Below are positions 4,277-29,079 of a stretch of 29,079 nt of DNA, in pieces. Made by a program: the position numbers and the translations under genes. Source of the stretch: a virus; IMG/VR virus record IMGVR_UViG_3300035016_000045, positions 1-29,079 of that record. One strand, written 5' to 3'. Position 1 is the first letter of the stretch. The number at the start of each line of letters is the position of its first letter. The notes under the pieces were generated by a model. It was not told the origin of the DNA. It saw only the letters and a list, made by a program, of their open reading frames with translations, and did no database searches.

Positions 4277-5053
4277 TCAGAACAGCGGGACGTTGGTGGC
4301 GACGAACCAGATGCCAGCGCCGATGGCCGCGACAGCAATGGCCGCATAGAGCCACAGCGGAGCCCGCTGACCGGGTTTGCGGGGCGCTGTGGCTGGCGGT
4401 TCGGGGTGGCGAGGAATGTCAGGAGGTGGCGGGCTGGGAGTGTAAGCACCAGCCTTCAGCGCCTTCTCGAACTGGATGGCATGGCCACCGATCAGCGCGG
4501 CCTTGTCGGTGCCGTTGACGGTACGGCGGGCCTGAATGAATTCCTTCAGGTCTTCATCATCGCTCTCGTCCACATCATCGATGCAGTCGGTGAGGCCCTT
4601 GCCGGTGAACCAACCTTCCATAGTGCCGACAACGAGGATGCGGGCCGAAGTGGCGAGGTCTAGCGCCAGCTCTGGCCTTGCTTCGAGATCGATCCCCAGC
4701 TTGTCGCCGGCAAAGCGATAGTTTCGCCGGCCGGTGATCATGACCTGGCCCCTGCCCCGGTATCGGTAGCCGTCCCCCGCCGCCGTGTTGCCGAGCCGCT
4801 TCCCGATGCTGGTGCCCGGCTCATACTTGTTGAAGTAGGAGCGCGGCCCATACTCGGTGATCGGCTGCATGGTGCCGTCCGTCTCGCGGATCGGTGTGGC
4901 AAGGACATAGGACAGCCGGTGGAGGCTACCGTCGCCGTAGCGGTCCCAGGCGTCGAGAATGGCGTTAATGCCGTCCACCTGCCCTTGCTTCAGCGAGCCG
5001 CCGAACAGATGCTTGCGGACGTGCGCAAAGAAGGCCTCTGGTTTCAGAAGCAT
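4277..5053 (-). CDS. GH19-type endolysin with C-terminal membrane anchor
   Basis: A 258-residue peptidoglycan-degrading enzyme. The catalytic domain (about 20-185) resembles the chitinase-like glycoside hydrolase 19 lysozymes: PIRETDGTMQPITE at 54-67 with likely acid Glu57, then YRYRGRGQVMITGRRNYRFAG at 97-116, the family hallmark. It is predicted to cut the glycan strands. A proline-rich linker (about 205-228) leads to a hydrophobic helix APLWLYAAIAVAAIGAGIW near 231-249, ending only a few residues later. A C-terminal anchor is unusual for an endolysin and would tether it to the inner membrane. The ATG at 5053 has GAGG seven bases upstream. A terminator-like hairpin lies about 30 bases upstream. 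Confidence 0.88.
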   Translation of the reverse strand: MLLKPEAFFAHVRKHLFGGSLKQGQVDGINAILDAWDRYGDGSLHRLSYVLATPIRETDGTMQPITEYGPRSYFNKYEPGTSIGKRLGNTAAGDGYRYRGRGQVMITGRRNYRFAGDKLGIDLEARPELALDLATSARILVVGTMEGWFTGKGLTDCIDDVDESDDEDLKEFIQARRTVNGTDKAALIGGHAIQFEKALKAGAYTPSPPPPDIPRHPEPPATAPRKPGQRAPLWLYAAIAVAAIGAGIWFVATNVPLF

Positions 5054-5082: not shown

Positions 5083-5104
5083 AGAAAACCCCGCCGAAGC
5101 GGGT
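5083..5104 (-). terminator. Terminator-like hairpin upstream of the endolysin gene
   Basis: On the minus strand the sequence reads CCCGC-TTCG-GCGGG followed by GTTTTCTTT: a 5-bp GC stem, UUCG loop and a U-rich run, a standard intrinsic terminator shape. It points towards the endolysin gene and lies in its leader, so it either ends transcription coming from the tail genes or controls entry into the lysis genes. Confidence 0.7.
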
Positions 5105-5234
5105 CGGTATCGTGTCGACAGGCTAGTCAGCGGCAGAGATCGGGCGTTCAGCAAAACGGCGTTAACCGTGCCTCCTTACCCTTTCTTCGCCACGGCATGA
5201 GAGCTTCAGCAAAGACCAACGGAAGGTAATGAGC

Positions 5235-5744
5235 ATGAAGAAGCTGATGGCGATCGGGATCAGTCTGCTGCTGTCGACTGCAGCTGCGGCTCAGGACAGC
5301 GGTGAATTCGACGGCTTCTACGTGGGTGGCGTCGTCAGTACAGCGCCAGCGGGCAACAACGACCGGTTCGAGGGTGCCGCTCTGGCTGGCTATCGTTTCG
5401 AGGCGGCGAGCAACCTAATCGTCGGCGTGGAGACGCAAGGCTCTCTTGGATTCGACACGCTGCGCGCGCCATATGTCGGAGCACAACTCACCGGGCAGGT
5501 TGGCGCCGTTGTTGGCGGTAACGTCCTTCTGTTCGCGCAGGCGGGTGTTGCAGTTGAGGACTACACAGACAATACCTTCCTCAATCCCCCGGCAACGACG
5601 AGCGCGGTTGCTGGGGTCGGCGTGGAATTTGCGGCTAACGAAGCCATTTCGTTGCGCATGGACGCAGTCGGCTTCCGCCGGCTGGAAGGCCGGGATGTTC
5701 CGGCAGCACGGGGCAGCGCTGGCGTCGTGTTCAAGTTCAACTAA
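5235..5744 (+). CDS. Small outer-membrane beta-barrel-like protein
   Basis: A 169-residue protein with a clear signal peptide (MKKLMAIGISLLLSTAAAA, cleavage before QD). The mature part alternates polar and hydrophobic residues in strands such as FYVGGVV, GAALAGYRFE, LIVGVETQGSLGF, GAQLTGQVGAVVG, VLLFAQAGVAV and AGVGVEFA, and ends in VVFKF followed by Asn, close to the terminal aromatic signal of outer-membrane barrels. It resembles the Omp25-type small porin-like proteins of alphaproteobacteria. The ATG at 5235 has GGAAGG eight bases upstream; the ATG at 5229 is too close. It lies on the opposite strand to the late genes, between lysis and tailspike modules. A lysogenic conversion role, such as altering phage receptors, is inference. 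Confidence 0.8.
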   Translation: MKKLMAIGISLLLSTAAAAQDSGEFDGFYVGGVVSTAPAGNNDRFEGAALAGYRFEAASNLIVGVETQGSLGFDTLRAPYVGAQLTGQVGAVVGGNVLLFAQAGVAVEDYTDNTFLNPPATTSAVAGVGVEFAANEAISLRMDAVGFRRLEGRDVPAARGSAGVVFKFN

Positions 5745-17425: not shown

Positions 17426-17449
17426 AAGAAAAACCCGCTCGAAAGCGGG
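17426..17449 (-). terminator. Terminator-like hairpin upstream of the connector gene
   Basis: Minus strand reads CCCGCT-TTCG-AGCGGG followed by TTTTTCTTTG: a perfect 6-bp stem, UUCG loop and five U. It is a strong intrinsic terminator 24 bases before the connector ATG, similar in sequence and placing to the one before the endolysin gene. It could end the transcript of the 17631-17903 gene. Confidence 0.78.
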
Positions 17450-17630
17450 CCGGTTAATCCTGTTGGGGAGACGCGCTTTCAACAGCCGCTTGCCTGTGAA
17501 TGCGAACGCACCGGGCATTGCAGGGCCGCGGTGCGCCTCTAGCCAGCTAAACGAGTGCCAAAGAAGATCCGGGGCAGCCAGACCGCCGGCTGGTCGAGTC
17601 CCTCACAGCGGTCCGGAGCGGCAGATCGCG

Positions 17631-18186: not shown

Positions 18187-18612
18187 ATGAACACCGTCGA
18201 ACGTCACTCTCGCCGCCGCAGCACATTGCTGATCCTCAATGCTTTGGCCTTGATCGCTTGGCAGGCGACCGAGATCTCACTTATCCATCGATACTTTGAA
18301 GAGGGCTATTTGGCCCTCCTGCCGCCGACTCTGATCATCTTATGGTTCATCACGCTGCTAGCGCTGCTCCTCAAGCCTGCCGAACGCATTTTTCGCCAAC
18401 AGCTGGAAGATGAATTGACGCAGCACAATCGCCGTAGCGCGATGATAGCGGGCTACTGGTCTGTTATGATGTCCACAGGTCTAGCGCTCGTAGCTGCGGG
18501 CACGGTGCAGGTCGAAGCGATAGATATAGCACGTGCAAATCTCATCGTCGGCGCGTCAGTGCCTATGCTGGTCTTTGCATTTCTGGAGCGTTTCGATGGC
18601 GTCGGACAGTGA
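18187..18612 (+). CDS. Four-helix membrane protein paired with an XRE regulator
   Basis: A 141-residue integral membrane protein with four hydrophobic helices (LLILNALALIAWQA, LALLPPTLIILWFITLLALLL, MIAGYWSVMMSTGLALVAAGTV, ANLIVGASVPMLVFAFL) and a charged loop after helix 2 (AERIFRQQLEDELTQHNRRS). It overlaps the start of the HTH gene by 17 bp, so the two are one operon. Similar pairs of small HTH regulators with a membrane protein occur widely, and the function of most is unknown. The pair sits on the opposite strand inside the head module, between the capsid-side gene and the connector-side gene, so it is likely cargo. It could be the sensor or the target of its regulator. Confidence 0.78.
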   Translation: MNTVERHSRRRSTLLILNALALIAWQATEISLIHRYFEEGYLALLPPTLIILWFITLLALLLKPAERIFRQQLEDELTQHNRRSAMIAGYWSVMMSTGLALVAAGTVQVEAIDIARANLIVGASVPMLVFAFLERFDGVGQ

Positions 18613-18811
18613 GAAGCTGTGTAACAATCTCAAAGTTCATCGCACGGACGCTGGCCTCACCCAGGCTGAACTGGCAACTTCCGTGGGCGTGTCCCGCAAG
18701 ACCATAAACACAGTGGAAAACGGTGTGTTCGTTCCATCCACCCTACTCGCACTTAAGATTGCCAAGGTGCTGGGAACTCAGGTTGAGGCGCTATTCTATC
18801 TCGAACTGTAG
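18596..18811 (+). CDS. Small XRE-family HTH transcriptional regulator
   Basis: A 71-residue protein starting at the ATG at 18596, with GGAG a little upstream, inside the end of the membrane gene. It is a single Cro/C1-type helix-turn-helix domain: LKVHRTDAGLTQAELATSVGVSRKTINTVENGVFVPS followed by ALKIAKVLGTQVEALF. The turn helices are TQAELATSVGV and SRKTINTVENG. It resembles the short YozG-like regulators that sit with membrane proteins. It is too small to be a classical prophage repressor with a C-terminal oligomerisation domain. It likely binds the repeat at 18125-18164 and controls its own operon. Confidence 0.88.
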   Translation: MASDSEKLCNNLKVHRTDAGLTQAELATSVGVSRKTINTVENGVFVPSTLLALKIAKVLGTQVEALFYLEL

Positions 18812-19187: not shown

Positions 19188-19211
19188 ACGGGCAGCCGGC
19201 GGGCCGCCCGT
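19188..19211 (-). terminator. Hairpin after the capsid gene
   Basis: The minus strand folds into ACGGGCGGCC-CGCC-GGCTGCCCGT, a 10-bp stem with one G-U pair, followed by TTCCGATTTTG. The U-run is imperfect, so it may be a partial terminator that lowers downstream expression relative to the capsid gene, or an mRNA-stabilising hairpin. It is the third internal hairpin in the late operon. Confidence 0.55.
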
Positions 19212-19231: not shown

Positions 19232-20500
19232 TCAGACGATGTTACCGAAGTCGCCATACACGAGCGCGCCGGGCTTCTTGATCGCCAGCGCCACGCGCTC
19301 TTCACAGCGCATGGTGTAGAGGTTCTTCTCGAAGTCATCGACGTTCTCGGACGCGATCAGGACCTCAGGCTCCATGCGGTCGTAGAGCGTCTGGAGCTTG
19401 AAACCTCCGACCAGGAACTTGTCGATGGTCATCGCCACTGTCGCCACCACCGGCTTGCCCCACAGGCGCGGGCCGGCGAGGTTTGTTGGGTTGGCGAAGA
19501 CGTAGGCACCATCTGTGGTCTTGGTCAGCTCGATGCCCGCCCAGTCGGCGGGATTGAGCACGATGCCGTCGGTGGGATAGAGCGCCAGTTCGGCCTGCAG
19601 CAGGCCCAGACGCAGGATGTCGATCATGTTCGCACCCGCGATCGTGATCGGCGCCGAATAGGCCGTGGCGTTCGGGATCAGGCCAGTGAGGTGCTGGCCG
19701 GTACCGTCACCGGTCAGGACTTCCACCTCCTCGGCAATGCCGAGGCCGTAGCGCATTTCGCTATCGACTTCGCCCTGCAGCTGCACCGCGTCATCGAGCG
19801 CCTGGCGGGTGAGCTTGGCCAGGTGAGCAATGGTGCGGATCGGCGCGTTGACCTGCTCCCAGATGTAGGCGGAGGTCGGCTTGGTGGCGCCCTCGGCAAC
19901 CACGGCCGCGTTGTTGGTGCGGGTGGTCTGGCGGGCATAGTCCACCGAGCCGCTGGTGGTCGGGACCACGTTCAGCAGGTCGCGGATCATCAGGCCGCGC
20001 TGGGGCAGCCCAGTGACCTCGGTGTCGCGCATGGACCACGCCGTGCCGGCCTGGGCTGCAGTGATGGCCTTCAGCGAAAAGCGGGCGCTGCCCTGGTAGC
20101 TGCCGGTCTGGAACGACTTGAACTTGTCGGAGCCGGCAATCTGCTCACCATAGCTCTTGACGTCGTCGCCTTCCGAGCCAGGCTTGCGGGCCATCTTCTG
20201 CTCGATGTCGTCGAGCTGGGCCTTGAGCGAGGTCGTGGTGGCCAGCAGCTTGTCGGCCGTCGACTTGGTTTCCTCGCTCAGCTTGCCGGTCTTGGTCGCT
20301 TCTTCAAGCGCCTTGTCGGCAACCTCGCGGGTCTCCTTGGTCGATTTTTCCAGCATGCCGCGAACTTCGTCGGCGAGCTGTTCGACGGACTTGGTCTGGT
20401 CCGGGTGGCCGGTGCCATCGCGCATGTAGCGGCCCATGGCGCGTTCGGCAGGGGTCATCGCGCCGAGCAGGTGCCCGACGTTCTTGCGATGCATCATCAT
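19232..20500 (-). CDS. HK97-type major capsid protein
   Basis: A 422-residue protein with an N-terminal charged coiled coil (about 35-95, KSTKETREVADKALEEATKTG) that corresponds to the delta scaffolding region removed by the protease, then the HK97 fold: the N-arm and E-loop region (SYQGSARFSLKAITAAQ), GLMIRDLLNVVPTTSGSVDYARQT, the P-domain helix (IRTIAHLAKLTRQALDDAVQLQGEVD), EEVEVLTGDGTGQHLTGLIPNAT and the A-domain end (LWGKPVVATVAMTIDKFLVGGFK). It builds the icosahedral shell. Three consecutive ATG codons occur at the start; the first at 20500 is listed, with AAAGGG upstream. It follows the protease gene by 37 bp. Confidence 0.95.
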   Translation of the reverse strand: MMMHRKNVGHLLGAMTPAERAMGRYMRDGTGHPDQTKSVEQLADEVRGMLEKSTKETREVADKALEEATKTGKLSEETKSTADKLLATTTSLKAQLDDIEQKMARKPGSEGDDVKSYGEQIAGSDKFKSFQTGSYQGSARFSLKAITAAQAGTAWSMRDTEVTGLPQRGLMIRDLLNVVPTTSGSVDYARQTTRTNNAAVVAEGATKPTSAYIWEQVNAPIRTIAHLAKLTRQALDDAVQLQGEVDSEMRYGLGIAEEVEVLTGDGTGQHLTGLIPNATAYSAPITIAGANMIDILRLGLLQAELALYPTDGIVLNPADWAGIELTKTTDGAYVFANPTNLAGPRLWGKPVVATVAMTIDKFLVGGFKLQTLYDRMEPEVLIASENVDDFEKNLYTMRCEERVALAIKKPGALVYGDFGNIV

Positions 20501-20537: not shown

Positions 20538-21203
20538 TCAGCCGGCCTTCAGCAGGCGCTGGAGGAACGTGGCTGCGTCATCCGCCTTCGCCTCGGGATC
20601 CCCCCGAAGATGCGGCGTTGCCTTGCTGGCGATGGCCGTCGCAAGGGCTTTCGAGAACCCGGCGTCCCGCAGGAATTCTTCGAACTCGCGGACGGTGGGC
20701 AGTGCTCCTCCGTCCAGAATGGCTTTGACCGTGGTCACCTTGGCGGAGAGGTCCATCGGCATGGTGACGAGGGAAATTTCGCGCAGGTCGATCTTGAGCA
20801 GCCTGGACACGCCGAACTGCTTGGGATCGGCCACAGCGCCACCGACCGGGATGCGATAGCCGATCGACATGCCGCCCAGAGCCCCGTTCTTCAGCAGCAC
20901 GTGGGCACGCTTGGCGAGAGGATCCTCGATCAGGAGCTGCCCCCTGACCTTAAGGCCCTTCTTGTCTTCGGAGATGTCCAGCCAAATGCCGATGGGCTCG
21001 TGACGATCGTGCTGCCAGAGCATCGGAATATGCCGGCCTGCCGCCGCTGCCTCGGCGAGCCCGTCCTTGAAGGCGCCACGCACGACTGTATCGCCGCCTT
21101 GGTCGATGTTGCCGAAGGTCGAGGCGTAGCCCTCAAAGATACCTTCGTCCTCAACCGTGTCCGCCTTGAAGGCGAAGTCGAGCGTTTTGAGCTGCATGGT
21201 CAT
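20538..21203 (-). CDS. HK97-family prohead protease
   Basis: A 221-residue serine protease that cleaves the capsid scaffold during prohead maturation. The S78-peptidase family pattern is present: FEGYASTFGNIDQGGDTVVRGAF at 23-45, PMLWQHDRHEPIG with catalytic His65, and LGGMSIGYRIP with catalytic Ser113; DLREISLVTMPM follows. The C-terminal extension after about 165 is helical and may be a self-cleavage and targeting tail. The ATG overlaps the portal stop by four bases (ATGA). The usual order portal, protease, capsid is intact. Confidence 0.94.
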   Translation of the reverse strand: MTMQLKTLDFAFKADTVEDEGIFEGYASTFGNIDQGGDTVVRGAFKDGLAEAAAAGRHIPMLWQHDRHEPIGIWLDISEDKKGLKVRGQLLIEDPLAKRAHVLLKNGALGGMSIGYRIPVGGAVADPKQFGVSRLLKIDLREISLVTMPMDLSAKVTTVKAILDGGALPTVREFEEFLRDAGFSKALATAIASKATPHLRGDPEAKADDAATFLQRLLKAG

Positions 21204-22543
21204 TCTCCGTCACGCAGCGGTGGGCCGCCGTTGTGTCCGTTCATGGGGTGCGCCTTGATGCGCTGGTCGACGATATCGGCAATGGCCTGCTCGATGGACT
21301 TCTGCCCGTCGCCGCGACCGAGCATTGCAATGGGCATGAGGTTCGACTGGGCCGTAAGTTCGCCGGCGCCCTCCCGCCTATCGAGGTTTTCCTTGCTGCG
21401 GATTTCATTGCGGTCCATCCAGCCGTTCTGGCTGGCCGATGCCCACAGGGCAGCACGTGCGGCGCTGTCGGCGCGCAGCAGGCTTTCGATGTTGTGCTCG
21501 ACGTAGAAGCGACCGCGATCCACCGGGAACAGCAACTGCTTCTCGATAGCTTGCTCGATGCGCTCAAGCTCGGCGGCAAGGCTGAGGCTCAGCCAGGCCA
21601 GCATGATCTGCTCAACGCCGCTCCCGAACATCGTCTGGCCCTGTGCGGCGTGCCCGATCAGGATTGGCGGCACACCGAACCAGCGGGCGATTTCCTCTGT
21701 CTGGAAGCGGCGCGTCTCGAGGAGTTGCGCATCTTCCGGGTTCATCGTCATAGACTTGAAAGACATGCCCGGGTCGAGCGGCAGCACCTTGCCGCGCTTG
21801 TCCGACCTGGCATAGCGCTCGAACAGAGCAGCGATTTCCTCGCGCTGTCCTTCCTTGAGCTTGATGCCCGTGGCGCTCTCGACGAATCCGGCGAGGGCAA
21901 GTCCGCTTGAGAAAGTACGTGCCGCAGCTTCTTCGGCCGCGATCGAGCTCGCCATGGTCTGGCGACCGAATGCGATCGGTGACAAGCCTTCCAAACCACC
22001 AGAGCCGAAGCCGCGCAGGTGAAACACCTGGTCCTCGCCCAGATCGCGTTCCTGCCGGCGCAGATCAGTTACCTTGTAGCGGCGGGTGCCGTCCTTGGCG
22101 CGGTACGGCCGGCAGAAGTCGGGCTCGATCGGCGTGAGCGCCACCAGCTTGTTGCCGGCAAAGTTCAGGTGCTTTTCTGCATAGGCATTGCCGCGCAGGT
22201 TCAGCCAGGTCGCCTGCCCTTCCCAGAACTCCATCGCCGTTTGATCGGCATTGGGGCTGTCGTGCAGGATGCGGTAGAGGTCGTGCCCACTACCATCGGC
22301 GCGGGAATTGGTGGCGGTGCGCTCATAGACCTTGCGCGGCAGGCTGCCGATGGTGCGGGCGTTGAGCCGGATGCATGCCCAGGCCGTCGCCAGTTGCATC
22401 ACCGAATCCACGGTCACCGGCTTCCCAGCCCAGTTGCTGCCACCGACGTCCGCACGAGAGCCGACGGGGATGCCGAAGGGCGGGCGGAAGTAGCTCAGCA
22501 GATGCTTGACGAAGCCCTGACGCTCGTGACGAACCAGGTCCAT
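21200..22543 (-). CDS. HK97-type portal protein
   Basis: A 447-residue portal that forms the twelve-fold ring for DNA entry. Family features include VDSVMQLATAWACIRLNARTIGSLP at about 45-69, DLYRILHDSPNADQTAMEFWEGQATWLNLRGNAY at about 86-120, and IARWFGVPPILIGHAAQGQTMFGSGVEQIMLAWLSLSLAAELERIEQAIEKQLL at about 285-340. The ATG overlaps the large terminase stop as TGATG and its own stop overlaps the protease start. No truncation is seen. The C-terminus is a short charged tail (NGHNGGPPLRDGE). Confidence 0.95.
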   Translation of the reverse strand: MDLVRHERQGFVKHLLSYFRPPFGIPVGSRADVGGSNWAGKPVTVDSVMQLATAWACIRLNARTIGSLPRKVYERTATNSRADGSGHDLYRILHDSPNADQTAMEFWEGQATWLNLRGNAYAEKHLNFAGNKLVALTPIEPDFCRPYRAKDGTRRYKVTDLRRQERDLGEDQVFHLRGFGSGGLEGLSPIAFGRQTMASSIAAEEAAARTFSSGLALAGFVESATGIKLKEGQREEIAALFERYARSDKRGKVLPLDPGMSFKSMTMNPEDAQLLETRRFQTEEIARWFGVPPILIGHAAQGQTMFGSGVEQIMLAWLSLSLAAELERIEQAIEKQLLFPVDRGRFYVEHNIESLLRADSAARAALWASASQNGWMDRNEIRSKENLDRREGAGELTAQSNLMPIAMLGRGDGQKSIEQAIADIVDQRIKAHPMNGHNGGPPLRDGE

Positions 22544-24336
22544 CAGAACATTCCACCGGCGACTTTAAGGAAGTCGTCGAGGTCAGTGCCTGCCTCGGTC
22601 GCTCCTGCCACGGCCGGAGCAATGGCATTGATCAAGGCGTCGATGCCGTCGATCTTGTTCGGGCTCATCTTGCTTTCCTTGATCGGGAGAATGGTCTCGT
22701 CTCGCCGGCGGTCGACCACGACATTCGAGGCCATCCAGGTCATCACCGGATTGCCATCATGGCGAAGCCGAGCTGGCCCTGCCTTGACGCGGGCTTCCAG
22801 TTCCTTCGCCGGGTCGGTGACCGCAGAGGCCTTCTTGTGAAGGATTTCGGCCAGCGTCCGCTCGCCGTCGCTGTGCTTTTCGTTCAGCCGCACCGCCATG
22901 GCCTGCGCAGCGGCGAACTGATCGAAGGTGATGCGCCGCACTTCCAGATCTGCAATCCACGTCTCGATCTGTTCCTCGATGACATTGTGGTCGATCCAGT
23001 CGCCGGGTGTCAGTTGCAGGTGGTTCTGCGCCACCCACGACCGATAAGGCGCCGGGCCTTTGCCCTCGGCATGATCCGGCTCTTGCAGAACCGCCTCCGG
23101 CAGCCAGAACATCGGCTTGAAGATCAGCCGGTCTCTTTCGTCGAACGCCGCCAGCACCAGCGCCGCTATATCGTCCTTGTCTGCCAGGTCGCCGCCGATC
23201 CAGCAGTCGAGCCCTCTGAACGCTTCCCAGCTCAGCGCCGGGTCTGCGCACTGGTTCCAGCGCACGATGTTCAGCCAGGCCGAGTGCGCATTGAGCCAGA
23301 CGTTGAGGTTCTTTGTCTGGAAGTTGCCCAGGCTGCCAGGCGAGGCCCGCGCATCCTTGGCGTCATCCCGCAGCGATTTCAGCGTCGGCGTCACCCCCAG
23401 CATGGGGTTGGCCTTGATCCACACCTTCTCGTCGAACGGATCGTCAGCTGGCACGAGAATCTTGCCGGCCTCGTCGAGCACCGCCTCGTCCAGGGTGAAG
23501 ATGATGCCGAAGTAATGGTCGGCCTCGAAGACCTCTTCCAGCACCTTGGTCAGGTAGGTGCGTTGCTCATAGCAGACGCCGTTCGTATTGAAGCCCGCCG
23601 TGGTGATGATCCACATCAGCGGATTGGAGCGGGCGCCGAACGCAGACTTGATGACGTCGAACAGGCCGCGGTCCTTGTGGGCATGCAGCTCGTCGAGGAT
23701 CCCGACGTGCGGGTTGTGCCCGTCCTGCGTCGAGCCCTTCGCGTTGATCGGCTGCACATAGCCGTCGTTGTCCGCGCAGGTGATAGACTTCGACCAGGGC
23801 GTGACACCAAACGCTTGCTGAAGGTCCGGACTGCGCCGCACCATCTTCTGCATCGGGTTGAAGACCTTGCCAGCCTGGGCGCCGGTCGTGGCGCCGATGA
23901 TCACTTGCGGCCCCACCTCGTTCTCACAGGTCAGGCAGTAGAGCCCGACGCCGGCAGTCAGTGTGGACTTGGCACCCTTACGGGCCATCTCGATGTAGGC
24001 GTAACTGAAGCGCCGCTTGCCATCATCCCGGCGCCGCCATCCGAAGATGGTGGTCAGAATGAATATCTGCGCCGGCTCGAGGAACAACGTTGCCGTCTTC
24101 CACTGGCCCTCTACGTGCGGCAACTTCTCAATGAAATCGCAGACGTCATCGCCATGCCAGCGGTCGTAGTAGAAGCCCCACTTCTTCGGCTTCTTCAGGT
24201 CCCGGAGATGGCGTTTGCAGGCCAGCTTGACCCACTGGCACGCCACGACCTTGCCGGCGACCACGTCCTTTGCCCACTGGAACGCAATGCCGGTATAGTC
24301 CCGGGCACCGTGCCAGCCCTTAGCCGCGCTTGCCAT
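22543..24336 (-). CDS. terL: Large terminase subunit
   Basis: The DNA packaging motor: an ATPase and a headful or cos nuclease. From the ATG at 24336 it has 597 residues. The ATPase has a Walker-A-like RKGAKST at about 119-125 (preceded by SYAYIEMA) and the acidic strand HVGILDELHAHKD as Walker B. The nuclease part has DCWIGGDLADKDD, the central RRITFDQFAAAQAM, and NKIDGIDALINAIAP near the end, giving conserved acidic residues. A TTG at 24384 could extend the protein by 16 residues. It overlaps the small terminase by 17 bp. It is the most conserved gene of the module and the best phylogenetic marker here. Confidence 0.95.
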   Translation of the reverse strand: MASAAKGWHGARDYTGIAFQWAKDVVAGKVVACQWVKLACKRHLRDLKKPKKWGFYYDRWHGDDVCDFIEKLPHVEGQWKTATLFLEPAQIFILTTIFGWRRRDDGKRRFSYAYIEMARKGAKSTLTAGVGLYCLTCENEVGPQVIIGATTGAQAGKVFNPMQKMVRRSPDLQQAFGVTPWSKSITCADNDGYVQPINAKGSTQDGHNPHVGILDELHAHKDRGLFDVIKSAFGARSNPLMWIITTAGFNTNGVCYEQRTYLTKVLEEVFEADHYFGIIFTLDEAVLDEAGKILVPADDPFDEKVWIKANPMLGVTPTLKSLRDDAKDARASPGSLGNFQTKNLNVWLNAHSAWLNIVRWNQCADPALSWEAFRGLDCWIGGDLADKDDIAALVLAAFDERDRLIFKPMFWLPEAVLQEPDHAEGKGPAPYRSWVAQNHLQLTPGDWIDHNVIEEQIETWIADLEVRRITFDQFAAAQAMAVRLNEKHSDGERTLAEILHKKASAVTDPAKELEARVKAGPARLRHDGNPVMTWMASNVVVDRRRDETILPIKESKMSPNKIDGIDALINAIAPAVAGATEAGTDLDDFLKVAGGMF

Positions 24337-24721
24337 TCCGCCCAAAAACGTTGCCTGGCTTCCCTCCGTCCGGGGCGATGCCAACGCGGCTGCGGGCGCC
24401 GCCTATGCCGAGCACTTCCTGCATCTTGCGCACCTCAGCGAACGCCGCGATCGGTGGCGTCTCGGCCGCGCGTATTGCCTTCACGATGGCGCCCTGCAGC
24501 GAGCAGTAGTTGGCGAACAGCGTGCTGTCCGATTCCGTCGCCAGCTTCACCCGGCCGATATCGTCGAGCCACACCTCGCCCGCCTCACTGGTCAGCCAGT
24601 CCGGGCGCTGCGGCGTCGACATTGGTTCTATGATCTGCACCCGACCACCATCGCGGACAGGTTGATATGTACCCTTCGCCTTCTTCTCTGAAGGCAACTG
24701 GCGCTTGGGTCCTGGCTGCAT
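24320..24721 (-). CDS. terS: P27-family small terminase subunit
   Basis: A 133-residue protein starting at the ATG at 24721, with AAGGA six bases upstream; a longer frame to 25039 would overlap a plus-strand gene and carries no conserved sequence. The family pattern is RPDWLTSEAGEVWLDDIGRVKLATESDSTLFANYCSLQGAIVKAIRAAE, then the helical FAEVRKMQEVLGIGGARSRVGI. It recognises phage DNA and delivers it to the large subunit. The N-terminus is basic (GPKRQLPSEKKAKG). It is separated from the HNH gene, with which it is normally adjacent, by two plus-strand genes. Confidence 0.9.
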   Translation of the reverse strand: MQPGPKRQLPSEKKAKGTYQPVRDGGRVQIIEPMSTPQRPDWLTSEAGEVWLDDIGRVKLATESDSTLFANYCSLQGAIVKAIRAAETPPIAAFAEVRKMQEVLGIGGARSRVGIAPDGGKPGNVFGRNGKRG

Positions 24722-24757
24722 TAGTGATCCTTGGGGTAACAGCGAGGAGGACAACAC

Positions 24758-25006
24758 ATGGCCAAGTATGATCCGTTGAAGACTCACCTGCTGAAGCAGG
24801 ATGCTACTGAACTGGTGCTCTCGTTTGCGGACATAGAGGCGGTGATCGACAGCACGCTGCCTGAGTCGGCGGAGCGCCCACAGTTCTGGGCCAACATGGC
24901 CAACGACGTCGGACACGTGCAACGCGAGGCATGGCGAAGCGCCGGCTACAACGCGTTCCTGATGGCTGGCGAACGTCGCGTTCGGTTCGTGCGGCACGCC
25001 AGGTAG
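24758..25006 (+). CDS. DUF7662-like small protein
   Basis: An 82-residue protein with the pattern MAKYDPLKTHLLKQ, VLSFADIEAVIDSTLPESA and AGYNAFLMAGERRVRFVR, which resembles the DUF7662 family of small alpha-beta proteins of unknown function. The ATG has GAGGAGG seven bases before it, a very strong site. It is divergent from the small terminase gene, with 36 bp between starts, so its promoter is either in that gap or inside the terminase gene. It interrupts the late operon and is likely cargo. A DNA- or nucleotide-binding function has been suggested for look-alikes only by shape, so none is claimed. Confidence 0.76.
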   Translation: MAKYDPLKTHLLKQDATELVLSFADIEAVIDSTLPESAERPQFWANMANDVGHVQREAWRSAGYNAFLMAGERRVRFVRHAR

Positions 25007-25133
25007 AAAATCGTCTCGCTGCCGAAGTTCAATTTGCACGCGGCTATTTTTGACTGGGTCGCCGGTCTAGAGCCCGTTACCCTCTGGACTTTCTGCCCAC
25101 CCTCCCCTGATCTACTCACCAGGGGGATTGCCT

Positions 25134-25880
25134 ATGCTGATCGACACGTCCGCTATTGAACTCGCCAATGAGCATTTCCTGACTGCTGACCAAGATTCCA
25201 TGCAGAACGTGGAATTCGCCAACCTCAGTGCGGCCCTGCTTCGGAGTGTTGTTCACCTCAACCTCGACAGCAACGATGAGGTAGCGATGCGTAGGCTAGG
25301 CGTGCGGGTGATCAATGCGGGAGGAGCTTGTGGCGCATTAGTTTTGGCAGGCTTCTATGAGCCGGCTGCTGCTCAGATAAGAGACATCATCGAGGTCGGT
25401 TGGCTCATCGACCTATTCAGTCGCAAGCCCAAGGAGATAAACCGTTGGCGGGTATGCGGGATCGACGCCCGCCGCCGTAACTTCTCGGCATATGAGGTCC
25501 GCAAGGCGTTGAACAAGCTAGACGCAGAGGAGCACCCCCGCCTTAGGGATCCTCGCAACTTTCGCGATCTACGGGACGAGTACTACCAGCTGTTCAGCCG
25601 GTATGGCACGCATGCGGACCCAGACCACATCGACCTATCGTCACCCGGACGAATGACACAAACGGGGCCGTTCTCAGACGAGACGCGTGCGAAAGCTTTC
25701 AGCGTAGAGCTTGCTCGCTATCTCGCGCCGCCTGCACTCTACCTGGCCGCGTGGGCGGGCAAACTCGACCATCTGCCTCGTGACGCCGATGCAGCTGCAT
25801 ATCAGGCTGCGTTTGTCGCCTTCCTCGACGCCTTGGATCGATGGAAGCTTTCGCCGGCAGGGCAATCAGCTCCCGTGTGA
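25134..25880 (+). CDS. Hypothetical mostly helical protein
   Basis: A 248-residue protein from the ATG at 25134 (MLIDTSAIELANEHFL), which has AGGGGG seven bases upstream; a TTG at 25128 is too close to that site. It is helical with conserved-looking segments: GFYEPAAAQIRDIIEVGWLIDLFSRKPKEINRW, DLRDEYYQLFSRYGTHADPDHIDL, and a hydrophobic patch APPALYLAAWAGKL. No membrane helix or signal is present. The character resembles the large group of unassigned DUF5677-like helical proteins, but I cannot confirm that. It follows the DUF7662-like gene by 127 bp and converges on HNH, overlapping its end by 15 bp. Likely accessory cargo. Confidence 0.7.
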   Translation: MLIDTSAIELANEHFLTADQDSMQNVEFANLSAALLRSVVHLNLDSNDEVAMRRLGVRVINAGGACGALVLAGFYEPAAAQIRDIIEVGWLIDLFSRKPKEINRWRVCGIDARRRNFSAYEVRKALNKLDAEEHPRLRDPRNFRDLRDEYYQLFSRYGTHADPDHIDLSSPGRMTQTGPFSDETRAKAFSVELARYLAPPALYLAAWAGKLDHLPRDADAAAYQAAFVAFLDALDRWKLSPAGQSAPV

Positions 25881-26204
25881 TTCCTCCTGCTGCTTGACCC
25901 GTGAGTGGCAGCGCCATGGTGCTTGATCGCACAGCGACTGCAGCTCGCCGTTCCAGAACAGGTCCTCATCACCGCGATGGGGCTCGACATGATCCGCAAC
26001 CGTGGCTGCCGTGATCCTGCCTTCTCGCAGGCAGTAGGCGCACAGGGGTTCGTCGAGTAGCTGCTGCCGACGCCGGCGCTGCCAAGCGGCGGTCTTGTAC
26101 CAGCGTCGCCAGGGTCGCTGGTCCCTGCGGTCGTCATAGACCCGTCGCTGCTGGGCTCGTGTCTGCTGGCCTGCCGGCTTCTGCTGAGGTGGCTTGCTGG
26201 GCAT
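25866..26204 (-). CDS. HNH endonuclease of the packaging module
   Basis: A 112-residue protein with an HNH domain: Cys55 and Cys58 in LCAYCLREG, the ADHVEPHRGDEDLFWNGELQSLC core with Asp71-His72, His76 and Asn85, then Cys92 and Cys99-His100. The spacing between the last two cysteines is six residues rather than the usual two, an oddity that may change zinc binding. Such nucleases sit beside terminase genes in many HK97-type phages and help terminase to cut concatemers. The N-terminus is basic and disordered (KPPQQKPAGQQTRAQQRR). The ATG at 26204 has TGGAG seven bases upstream. Confidence 0.9.
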   Translation of the reverse strand: MPSKPPQQKPAGQQTRAQQRRVYDDRRDQRPWRRWYKTAAWQRRRRQQLLDEPLCAYCLREGRITAATVADHVEPHRGDEDLFWNGELQSLCDQAPWRCHSRVKQQEESHGS

Positions 26205-26271
26205 CAGTGGCTCCAGTAAATAACCAAGTGCTCCTTTGTCAGATGCAAGGGGGGCTTAAAGGGGAATGGAA

Positions 26272-26556
26272 ATGGCCGTCTATTTGGTTACGTGGGACTT
26301 GAACCGCGCGCAGCCGGACTACAACAGCGCCCGACAAAGACTTGTGGATCATCTTTCTAGGTACGAACACGTCAGAGATAGCGGGCTGGATTCTGTTTGG
26401 TTTATCAGCTCCGCAGCGACGGCCGATTCTCTTGATGCCGCTATTCGCAAACACATGGATAACAATGATCGGCTCATTGTCACGAAGCTTGTCAGCGGAC
26501 AGCATCAGGGTTGGCTAGATCCAGAGGTTTGGAAGTGGATCTATGCTCGGGTGTGA
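26272..26556 (+). CDS. Standalone Cas2-like (SinR-type) protein
   Basis: A 94-residue protein from the ATG at 26272, with AAGGGG seven bases before it. The N-terminal strand MAVYLVTWDLNR holds an Asp at position 9, followed by a long helix (SARQRLVDHLSRYEHV), the strand LDSVWFISS, the helix SLDAAIRKHMDNND and the strand RLIVTKL. This is the ferredoxin-like layout of Cas2 and of the SinR-like and VapD-like relatives that occur outside CRISPR loci. No Cas1, repeat array or other cas gene is in the window. It faces away from the HNH gene, with 67 bp between the starts. Function is unknown; RNA or DNA cleavage is possible but not shown. Confidence 0.72.
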   Translation: MAVYLVTWDLNRAQPDYNSARQRLVDHLSRYEHVRDSGLDSVWFISSAATADSLDAAIRKHMDNNDRLIVTKLVSGQHQGWLDPEVWKWIYARV

Positions 26557-26618
26557 GAGGGGGGATACCGTTCATGATGCGCCTCCTTCAGCAGCGGTCC
26601 TGAGACTCCGGTGTGGAC

Positions 26619-27056
26619 ATGTTGAATTGGTTGAAAGAACAGACTGAACTCTACGAACTCAACCGCTCCTTACGCCTGACCTCGGCGGCTTTTGCCAAAG
26701 AAAGAGCAGCTGGCAAGGCGGCTGGTCTCCCGGGATATGAACTCGCGCAAATTGAATACGAGGAGCATCTAGAGACGGCGCTCTATTATGATGAGATTGA
26801 GTGGATCAAGACCAAGCGGCTTATTCGAACTGCTGTTCGCTACTCCGTGCCGATCCCTACCCGAGCTGAAGGCGAGGATTGGGAACAGTCCCGCCACCTC
26901 GGTCACTGGCTACTGACGCCAGTTGGCGCCACCAAGCTCCGGCGTGAAGTAGCGGTCGAGGTCGACATCAGGCAAAAGCCTTGGCTTAACTGGCTAGCTG
27001 TAGCCATCAGCGCTGCGAGTCTCGTGGTTGCCCTCTTTGCACTTGGCTCGGCCTAG
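26619..27056 (+). CDS. Hypothetical tail-anchored helical protein
   Basis: A 145-residue protein read from the ATG at 26619 (a GTG lies six bases earlier). It has a charged helical body (NWLKEQTELYELNRSLRLTSAAFAKERAAGKAAG, then EYEEHLETALYYDEIEWIKTKRLIR), a middle part with HWLLTPVGATKLRREV, and one C-terminal hydrophobic helix (LNWLAVAISAASLVVALFALG) with almost no residues after it. That is the shape of a tail-anchored inner-membrane protein. I do not recognise a family. It is the second gene of the plus-strand block and likely accessory. The ribosome binding site is weak. Confidence 0.62.
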   Translation: MLNWLKEQTELYELNRSLRLTSAAFAKERAAGKAAGLPGYELAQIEYEEHLETALYYDEIEWIKTKRLIRTAVRYSVPIPTRAEGEDWEQSRHLGHWLLTPVGATKLRREVAVEVDIRQKPWLNWLAVAISAASLVVALFALGSA

Positions 27057-27123
27057 CCGCCACATCATGCCCACATTGTGGATTCAGCCTCGCTCGTGTC
27101 GACTCACACCCGAGGGGACGGTC

Positions 27124-27801
27124 ATGGCTAGCAAACCAAAAGCGGAAATTACGGCGGAACAGCAGGAAGCCCGCCTCGAAACACAAAGGCGATACCGAGC
27201 CCGGAAGAGGCAGGAAGACCCCGAAACTTTTTACGCGAAGAACCAGGCTGTTGCCGCTCGATACTGGGAGCGGCACAGAGAGCGCCTGAATACGTACTAT
27301 CGAGAACGCGAAAGAGAACGACGGGCGTTCGCTACCCCAGAACAGCTTCTGGAACTTAGTGCGAAAGCGAAAGAACGGTATCACCGCAATAAAGATGCCG
27401 ACCCCGAAGGTTTCCTGCAGCACCAAAACGAGCGTCAGAGGTTGGCTCGATCAGTGAAGATGGCCAAGGACCCCGAGCAGGTTCATGCTGCCGAGCGGCG
27501 GCGCGATCGCGGCAGTTCCCCTCTCAAGGATGCGACAGGACGCAAGCTCTACGCGGATTTGCGGCGGGCGGTGCCGACTACTTGGGCCAGACAGGATCGC
27601 GACGAGGTCATCGGTATGGTGTTGATGGCTGTGTCTGATGGAACCGTGCGCGTCAAAGACGCCGTCGGAGCCATCAAGAGGTACACGACCCAAAACAACC
27701 GAGATTACGACACGTTCAAGAGCGTTTCCCTTGATGCTCTCCACCCCGAGACTGGCAAAGCCTGGATCGACAATCTCGACAGCGAAACGCCGCACTTCTG
27801 A
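27124..27801 (+). CDS. Basic protein with possible sigma-like C-terminal part
   Basis: A 225-residue protein from the ATG at 27124, with GAGGGG six bases upstream. The N-terminal two thirds are highly charged and helical, with repeats of the type RYRARKRQEDPETFY, RYWERHRERLN and RYHRNKDADPEGFL, each placing an aromatic residue with Arg/Glu pairs. The last 80 residues differ: KLYADLRRAVPTTWARQDRDEVIGMVLMAVSDGT, then AVGAIKRYTTQNNRDYD and SVSLDAL. This part recalls phage proteins related to sigma-70 region 2, but only by pattern. It may bind DNA or RNA. It is the third gene of the plus-strand block, 67 bp after the tail-anchored gene. Confidence 0.66.
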   Translation: MASKPKAEITAEQQEARLETQRRYRARKRQEDPETFYAKNQAVAARYWERHRERLNTYYRERERERRAFATPEQLLELSAKAKERYHRNKDADPEGFLQHQNERQRLARSVKMAKDPEQVHAAERRRDRGSSPLKDATGRKLYADLRRAVPTTWARQDRDEVIGMVLMAVSDGTVRVKDAVGAIKRYTTQNNRDYDTFKSVSLDALHPETGKAWIDNLDSETPHF

Positions 27802-27897
27802 GGTAGCCGCCGCTGCCATATCCGTCTCTATGTGGCACCATTTGCCGCGCCCTCCCGTTGTGCCGTCAGACTGCCCACGAACAACTGGAGAGGTCAC

Positions 27898-28092
27898 ATG
27901 GAGAAGATCATCAACACCTATGAAGCCACCGCATCGGGAGGAGCCTCGGTGACCGTCTATGAGATCGAGGAGAACGGCATCAAACGCATGCAGCTTTCAG
28001 ACGGCCGGCCGCTCAAGATGGTCGGTGACCGTGAATTCAAGATCGAGGGCACCGACGAGGTGTTCCTGCTGGACCGGCCTTACTCGCTTTGA
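27898..28092 (+). CDS. Small hypothetical protein
   Basis: A 64-residue protein from the ATG at 27898, with GGAGAGG four to five bases upstream; the longer reading from 27832 has no support. It is beta-rich (EATASGGASVTVYEIEENGIKRMQLSDGRPLKMVGDREFKIEGTDEVFLL), with no membrane segment or cysteines. I do not recognise a family. It is the last gene of the plus-strand block and converges on the nusG-like gene, separated by the 28127-28148 hairpin. Codon pattern and ribosome binding site favour a real gene. Confidence 0.68.
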   Translation: MEKIINTYEATASGGASVTVYEIEENGIKRMQLSDGRPLKMVGDREFKIEGTDEVFLLDRPYSL

Positions 28093-28126
28093 ACAAGAGT
28101 GGCAGCGGCCGGCCACCACAATGCAA

Positions 28127-28148
28127 AAGGCCCGCCGAAGCGAGCCTT
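28127..28148 (-). terminator. Terminator after the nusG-like gene
   Basis: The minus strand reads AAGGCTCGC-TTCG-GCGGGCCTT, a 9-bp stem with one mismatch, then TTTTGC. It has the same UUCG loop and GC core as the hairpins before the endolysin and connector genes. It lies about 115 bases beyond the nusG-like stop and between convergent genes, so it would end the nusG-like transcript. On the plus strand there is no U-run. Confidence 0.7.
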
Positions 28149-28264
28149 GGAATTCTGGTCGTGATACTGGCGTTCGGCGTCTCTGCGCCCGGGTCTCTCG
28201 CGGCTCGGGTTTCGCGGTGCTGCCACCGGCCTGCCAACGGATCAGAGATCATCCTCCTGCGAAT

Positions 28265-28852
28265 CTACGCGACCCGGGACATACTTTCAAGCGCCATCGG
28301 CATTTCGCGTTCGGTGTTGAACAGCTTCAGGACGATCGTTGCCATGGTGCCATTGATCTCTATCACGCGGACCTGATGGTCGCGGAACGGGCCTTCGAGG
28401 ATCTCGACATTGTCGCCGACGCCGAACTCTTCCCGGGTGCGCATATGACGCTGCTCGGGTGGCGCTCGCAGTGAGCCGTTCGAATATACAGGAGCGAACT
28501 TGGCGAAGGCGTCTCGGTGCGCTTTGTGCGGCCGGCCTTTGTGCCCGATGACGCCCAGGATCAGCGGGAAGTCACCCAGCCAATACCAAGGCGGCATCGT
28601 TCCTTCGGGGAAGCCCGCGAACAGGTGGCGAGGGACGACGGGAAACGCCATCTCTTCCTTGAGCTTCCGGCTCTTGGTGTAACGGTTCGTCGACCGCCAG
28701 CGCGTCTCAGTGGGAATGAAAGTCGCAATTCCCCGACGGCGCAGGATATGCGCGCAGGTGTATTCCTTTTGCGGGGCTGTGACGAACGCGTACCAGTCGA
28801 GCTTTACGTCGACGGTGGTCACCAAATCCTTGGTGACGATGAGCTTGGACAT
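28265..28852 (-). CDS. NusG-like transcription elongation/antitermination factor
   Basis: A 195-residue NusG paralogue. Residues 19-115 form the NGN domain (DWYAFVTAPQKEYTCAHILRRRGIATFIPTETRW), including PVVPRHLFAGFP, which contacts RNA polymerase. The stretch 143-170 is the KOW motif (FGVGDNVEILEGPFRDHQVRVIEING). The final strand is IVLKLFNTEREMPMALESMSRV. NusG paralogues such as RfaH change elongation or termination at selected operons. The ATG at 28852 is preferred over 28984 because the longer frame adds unconserved sequence and the chosen one has GAGAGG seven bases upstream. It heads the minus-strand late region, beside an IS5 fragment. It is not the housekeeping nusG, which sits with secE and ribosomal genes. 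A role in late phage transcription is inference. Confidence 0.85.
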   Translation of the reverse strand: MSKLIVTKDLVTTVDVKLDWYAFVTAPQKEYTCAHILRRRGIATFIPTETRWRSTNRYTKSRKLKEEMAFPVVPRHLFAGFPEGTMPPWYWLGDFPLILGVIGHKGRPHKAHRDAFAKFAPVYSNGSLRAPPEQRHMRTREEFGVGDNVEILEGPFRDHQVRVIEINGTMATIVLKLFNTEREMPMALESMSRVA

Positions 28853-28856
28853 AGAT

Positions 28857-28880
28857 CGACCTCTCGGATGGGAGAGGTCG
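28857..28880 (-). promoter_or_regulatory. Hairpin that covers the nusG-like ribosome binding site
   Basis: Perfect 9-base inverted repeat: CGACCTCTC and GAGAGGTCG with the 6-base spacer CCATCC on the minus strand. The 3' arm contains the GAGAGG ribosome binding site, and the ATG follows four bases after it. In RNA the site would be paired, which suggests translational control; as DNA it could equally be an operator. Confidence 0.6.
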
Positions 28881-28953: not shown

Positions 28954-29079
28954 CTAGGCGGTGTGGACAAAGTGCCTGATCCAAAGTCGGATGGATGCGA
29001 CGAGCACGAAGCCGAGGAAGCTGTCGGCGGTCTTATCGTAGCGGGTGGCCAGTCGGCGGCTGTGTTTCAGCTTTGAGAA
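28954..29079 (-). mobile_element. IS5-family transposase, C-terminal end at the window edge
   Basis: The minus strand encodes the last 41 residues of an IS5-type (IS427-like) DDE transposase before a TAG at 28954: a Lys-rich start, RRLATRYDKTADSF, GFVLVASIRLWI and a short tail. The catalytic DDE residues are not in view because the element runs off the window. I cannot locate the terminal inverted repeat or target duplication. The element lies just upstream of the nusG-like promoter region and may have altered it, or may mark a prophage border. Confidence 0.8.

Follow-up and report, generated by a model that had tools for sequence, protein, structure and literature searches.

The window, the whole stretch of 29,079 nt analysed here (IMG/VR record IMGVR_UViG_3300035016_000045, positions 1 to 29,079), carries a NusG-family gene close to the contig edge. 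On the same strand the gene is followed by a promoter-like site, a putative leader ending in a hairpin and, beyond a group of opposite-strand genes, the packaging and head genes. In the order in which the late strand is read, the features are:

28857-28880, minus strand: 9-bp hairpin (CGACCTCTC-N6-GAGAGGTCG) directly before the nusG start codon
28265-28852, minus strand: NusG-family gene, putative late antiterminator of 195 aa with NGN and KOW domains (Pfam, PHROG, AlphaFold2 with Foldseek)
28262-28290, minus strand: sigma-70-like promoter TTGAAA-N17-TAGATT, putative late promoter (consensus match)
28147-28256, minus strand: leader of the putative late transcript, about 110 nt, ending in the 28146-28129 hairpin
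28129-28146, minus strand: intrinsic terminator GGCTCGC-TTCG-GCGGGCC-TTTTGCAT at the leader end, tR'-like (-12.4 kcal/mol, UUCG loop)
28099-28119, minus strand: second, weaker terminator-like hairpin
26266-28092, plus strand: opposite-strand genes (phrog_1090, phrog_16539, phrog_24127), function unassigned, between the leader and the packaging genes
25866-26204, minus strand: HNH endonuclease, among the first late genes (22543-26204)
24320-25039, minus strand: ORF whose C-terminal part is the small terminase, among the first late genes
22543-24384, minus strand: large terminase, among the first late genes
21200-22543, minus strand: portal (profile match)
20538-21203, minus strand: head protease (by position and tblastn)
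19232-20500, minus strand: major capsid protein (profile match)
19189-19210, minus strand: hairpin just 3' of the capsid gene (-18.1 kcal/mol, poor U-tract)
17433-17450, minus strand: intrinsic-terminator-like hairpin inside the late region, adjoining the opposite-strand insert 18187-18811 (-11.1 kcal/mol)
5090-5103, minus strand: short UUCG hairpin with a U-rich tail, upstream of the ORF 4277-5053 (-8.7 kcal/mol)

The 28265-28852 ORF matches Pfam NusG (PF02357; 27.3 bits, cut-off 22.2) and KOW (PF00467; 26.2 bits, cut-off 22.3). It is also matched by phrog_6386 (E 5e-15), as are 37 of 40 relatives of the protein; the name of that profile, 'transcription antiterminator', is an annotation and, as a function, a prediction from sequence. 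The protein scores far below the housekeeping NusG model TIGR00922 (19.9 bits against an equivalog cut-off of 135.7) and below the UpxY model NF033644 (39 bits against a subfamily cut-off of 100). An AlphaFold2 model made from an alignment of 40 relatives has confident NGN and KOW domains (103 residues with pLDDT >= 90), and Foldseek against the PDB matches it to NusG and RfaH, among them structures of ops-recruited RfaH and of NusG within the lambda N complex. The flexible joint between the two domains keeps full-length TM scores low; taken domain by domain the fit is good, at 3.0 Å over 92 columns between the NGN domain and that of RfaH and 1.4 Å over 54 columns between the KOW domain and the NusG CTD 2mi6. 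The C-terminal domain is predicted as a beta barrel, a prediction compatible with an RfaH-type alpha-helical switch. The first-pass annotation had placed a NusG-like protein on the late strand upstream of all virion genes, and a complete NGN+KOW ORF does lie there. Searches by tblastn gave no match for P0001 in the isolated-phage and plasmid collections, and none for the members L023, L002, L142 and L177 in the isolated-phage collection.

The hairpin before the start codon holds a Shine-Dalgarno-like GAGAGG in its 3' arm. It was found with 0 mismatches, where 0.03 such hairpins would be expected by chance in the window at 3 mismatches. L004 has this hairpin too, in front of its unrelated DUF6456 gene; it occurs in no other of 173 loci.

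Two features of this end of the late region were absent from the first-pass annotation. The end of an IS5-family transposase gene lies at 28955-29079, at the contig edge and about 100 bp upstream of nusG; plasmids of Hyphomicrobiales carry copies up to 89 % identical to it. Additionally, the plus-strand genes at 26266-28092 part nusG from the packaging genes; one of them has a homologue in L003 at the same place and in the same orientation. Since these genes come after the leader, another late promoter could lie closer to the terminase genes. Two more opposite-strand inserts are found within the late region, one at 18187-18811 with a membrane protein and an HTH_3 regulator and one at 5229-5744 with an outer-membrane-like protein, and two internal hairpins adjoin them. 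Regions of Devosia geojensis and Arsenicitalea aurantiaca hold terminases 80-82 % identical to that of the window, so a host in the Hyphomicrobiales is likely.

Profile and pattern searches had supplied 63 NusG-bearing loci at the start of the analysis, 14 from the terminase neighbours of the window or its own sub-clade (A1) and 49 from a sister sub-clade (A2). A large terminase gene is located 932-3881 bases downstream of nusG, always co-directionally, in 56 of the 63, and in 39 a gene resembling a replication initiator lies about 2 kb upstream; as related loci are not independent, both counts describe a pattern and not a probability. The terminases in NusG-bearing loci belong to three unrelated families (HK97-type, gpA-type and Terminase_6C), and thus the nusG-terminase arrangement is not one inherited block. 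nusG sits at the early/late border, which in lambda is the place of Q.

Among the nearest terminase relatives of the window, L012 alone also carries NusG. In seven distinct close relatives (L003, L004, L005 = L092, L006 = L093, L007, L010 and L011; terminases 73-84 % identical) the slot of nusG is filled by a DUF6456/phrog_21451 gene. These slot genes match Pfam DUF6456 weakly or clearly, and a profile built from six of them recovers the seventh. A NusG gene and a DUF6456-type gene occur together in none of the loci examined, and L064 has neither type within its stretch examined. Homologues of GafA are annotated as DUF6456 (PMC9638019), and GafZ, the counterpart of the C-terminal part of GafA, has been shown to be an antiterminator for the gene-transfer-agent cluster of C. 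crescentus (PMC11150451). Because a DUF6456 gene fills the same slot and GafZ is a demonstrated antiterminator, the NusG gene seems to take the place of an antiterminator of the GafZ type; by analogy, the phage DUF6456 proteins would themselves be antiterminators. At the leader start in L003, L004, L005, L006, L007 and L010 a small palindrome is seen, for instance GGCGC-NNN-GCGCC or GACGC-ACT-GCGTC, which is a possible DUF6456 target.

Near the stop of every slot gene in the terminase clade of the window, whichever its type, the same order is found: a sigma-70-like promoter, then a leader of roughly 25-110 bases that is followed by a strong intrinsic terminator. Promoters were called as consensus matches. 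Over nine phages of the clade, combined p values against random windows of the same contigs are 1.7e-9 for the promoters and 8.7e-8 for the terminators, both optimistic because the scoring scheme was chosen after the sequences had been viewed. In the window itself the -10 of the promoter covers the nusG stop codon (p 0.012 against random windows), the same place as in relatives, and the 28146 hairpin stands out from random windows of its own contig (p 0.026). The core of this terminator is the same in L006/L093, with variants in L004, L005 and L175; its sequence type may be common in these hosts. In sub-clade A1 (L002, L122, L174-L178) the leaders resemble one another, and GCAAATCAC is common to the promoter spacers. 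A profile of the A1 leaders built without the window matches the window at 28266-28230 (nhmmer, 10.6 bits, E 0.52 over 2.7 Mb; about 6e-6 for the expected 60-base place), and the match, to model positions 55-92, falls exactly at the -10 of the window promoter. A spacer element, CAAATCAC, lies between -35 and -10 and is common to sub-clade A1 and L004. It is also seen upstream of nusG in two A1 phages (L002:7192-7222 and L178:9851-9891), as if the same factor also acted there on the promoter of nusG itself.

The first-pass annotation had linked the gene to four hairpins near 28127-28148, 17426-17449, 5083-5104 and 19188-19211. All four are present, intergenic and on the late strand. Their presence alone proves little, since terminator-like sites as a class are no commoner in the window than in shuffles (11 against 9.3 and 12 against 12.8). 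The proposed pairing of gene and hairpins is seen in relatives for 28146-28129 only. Eight distinct relatives (nine loci) without a NusG gene retain the hairpin behind the capsid gene, which argues that it is not tied to nusG and has another role, perhaps in setting the capsid mRNA level; at the same place but with changed sequence it is seen in L004, L005, L006, L007, L009, L011 and L064. For 17450-17433 no counterpart was seen in the relatives scanned, and the fetched loci of the relatives stop short of 5103-5090. In A2 phages, where intrinsic terminators are not enriched behind nusG, the protein may act on Rho or on pausing.

Position, gene exchange and flanking signals together argue that the product of 28265-28852 is probably a phage late antiterminator of the NusG family, lambda-Q-like in a Q-pR'-tR' layout. 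The analysis establishes the family of the protein, its conserved location, the exchange with a gene of GafZ type, the succession of promoter, leader and terminator, and the homology of the leader with those of relatives; the time of expression, the loading and the read-through by the NusG paralogue are inferred. The paralogue would be made with the early genes. RNA polymerase would start at 28290-28262, make the leader of about 110 nt and normally stop at 28146-28129. During transcription of the leader the paralogue would load by placing its NGN domain on the beta' clamp helices, the way NusG and RfaH do, and would then ride the polymerase and suppress pausing and termination. The polymerase could thereby get past the terminator of the leader, the inserts on the opposite strand and the hairpins inside the late region, and reach the packaging, head, tail and lysis genes. 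Weighing against this reading are the opposite-strand genes behind the leader, the absence of the A2 RNA from the window, the lack of terminator enrichment in A2 and the missing ops element. The processive late antiterminator of the first-pass annotation is well supported by position, slot exchange and the fit of promoter, leader and terminator, with support from the hairpins limited to one of the four.

A second way in which such a protein could serve the late genes, here considered unlikely, is as an RfaH-like anti-polarity factor that takes the place of host NusG, keeps Rho from acting and couples ribosomes with polymerase over the length of the late transcript, with the hairpins not its target. 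RfaH itself works mainly in this manner (PMC7593976). The leader hairpin would then, with the same low probability, only end the early unit or the convergent genes; it does lie between convergent genes, where a terminator is expected anyway. Likewise, intrinsic terminators are not enriched behind nusG in A2 (8 on the sense strand against 11 on the other, 63 loci), a result in line with an anti-polarity role. However, in the nine phages of the terminase clade of the window, whichever slot-gene type they carry, the terminator is tied to a promoter just upstream and a short leader, and a terminator that merely ended a unit would need no such promoter. An intrinsic terminator directly behind nusG as a property of all NusG-bearing phages was considered and rejected, given the lack of enrichment in A2.

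Control at initiation, with the slot protein switching on the late promoter in the style of GafA and the omega subunit instead of acting in elongation, appears improbable. GafA does act with the omega subunit at promoters (PMC9638019), and the spacer element CAAATCAC common to A1 and L004 would suit such a factor; however, NusG-family proteins bind elongating polymerase, the fold here is plain NGN+KOW, and the kept leader and terminator would be purposeless. Least credible of all is a passenger or decayed gene, a mobile or broken regulator beside an IS with no present role: the IS5-type end about 100 bp upstream, where the contig stops, and the lack of a NusG gene in most terminase relatives would fit it, but the ORF is intact with both domains, the hairpin before the start codon, the promoter, the leader and the terminator are kept as in relatives, and relatives without nusG hold another antiterminator-type gene in the slot.

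Several known systems resemble the proposed late antiterminator. RfaH, LoaP and UpxY are known NusG-paralogue antiterminators, and Q-type late control is also known. Lambda Q and phage 21 Q, with pR'-tR', share the gene at the early/late border, the late promoter behind it, the short leader, the intrinsic terminator and the late genes that follow; however, the Q proteins are unrelated to NusG. LoaP of Bacillus belongs to the NusG family, and the leader it targets combines an intrinsic terminator with a structured RNA. A UNCG hairpin belongs to that target, and UUCG-type apical loops are present in several A2 leaders. In contrast to the phage gene, LoaP serves antibiotic operons in Gram-positives, and no dfn-like hairpin was identified in the window leader. 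Read-through of later terminators is reported for LoaP (PMC12691694). RfaH, UpxY and plasmid-borne NusG paralogues have the NusG fold and a gene beside or ahead of a long operon, and rfaH-like genes have been mentioned on prophages (PMC7593976). The RfaH ops element, however, has no match at the window leader (two matches elsewhere are at chance level), the window protein is predicted with a beta-barrel CTD, and it lies far below the UpxY cut-off (39 against 100). GafZ and GafA of alphaproteobacterial gene transfer agents are comparable through the DUF6456 genes that occupy the same slot, with promoter, leader and terminator, in sister phages; their family is unrelated to NusG and appears as an alternative slot occupant.

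In A2, k-mer counts pointed to a conserved non-coding sequence behind nusG. A structured RNA of about 110 nt with strong covariation extends from the nusG stop codon in these phages (L142:10532-10642 and 31 further loci). In structural alignment it has one hairpin at the stop codon, then a long second stem and a third hairpin, and it closes with a conserved tail; several of its apical loops are UUCG. The alignment was made by hand, as the MAFFT RNA alignment yielded no consensus structure; its seed was padded with N, and sparsely filled columns were omitted. The covariation score of the hand alignment was set aside as fitted, and proof of the RNA was taken from held-out matches and control loci. 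Built from 23 sequences, a covariance model picks up 32 loci at E < 0.001, every one at the nusG stop codon, of which nine lie outside the seed (L138, L141, L144, L148, L152, L159, L166, L168 and L171; L141 and L166 are near-copies of seed members). In 81 control loci without NusG the best E is 0.26. When the sequences are realigned to the model, 20 of 24 pairs show changes in both partners; such double changes fill 113 cells, where shuffles give 35.6, and pairing is 84.5 % against 40-57 % for slid structures. The realignment leans towards the model, yet the controls are unambiguous. Further weak matches, mostly at that place too, come from a second model, which has none at E < 0.17 in the control loci. 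Rfam has no match in the window or in six A2 loci. The A2 model was also tried on the window, without a match, and the sub-clade of the window has its own leader.

Promoter-like sites are found at the nusG end in 20 of 55 A2 loci against a background of 2.9 % (p 2.5e-17, with relatedness ignored). Since they sit at that end, the A2 RNA is probably the leader of the late transcript. For the wider proposal the chances are about even: a phage-encoded class of NusG-based late antiterminators that a structured leader RNA, starting from the stop codon of their own gene, loads at a dedicated late promoter, and that can be exchanged for GafZ-type proteins in one slot.

To our knowledge, no transcription factor family other than NusG occurs in all cells, and NusG paralogues are familiar as regulators of operons of the host. 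In the phage group described here such a paralogue seems to have been put in the role of lambda Q. No paper on a NusG-family protein in that role was found in a partial literature search, and novelty is hence not proven. If the proposal is true, the protein, promoter, leader and terminator form a compact system in which the recruitment of NusG paralogues and the passage of terminators can be studied, and the sister sub-clade A2 adds a new RNA family as a candidate loading site. The slot exchange with GafZ/DUF6456 suggests that late control in phages and in gene transfer agents of the Alphaproteobacteria shares one modular design.

In four A2 phages a tRNA gene lies directly behind the leader element (L017:519-593, L160:10628-10704, L163:10749-10825 and L146:10726-10799); three are tRNA-Met and one is tRNA-Thr.
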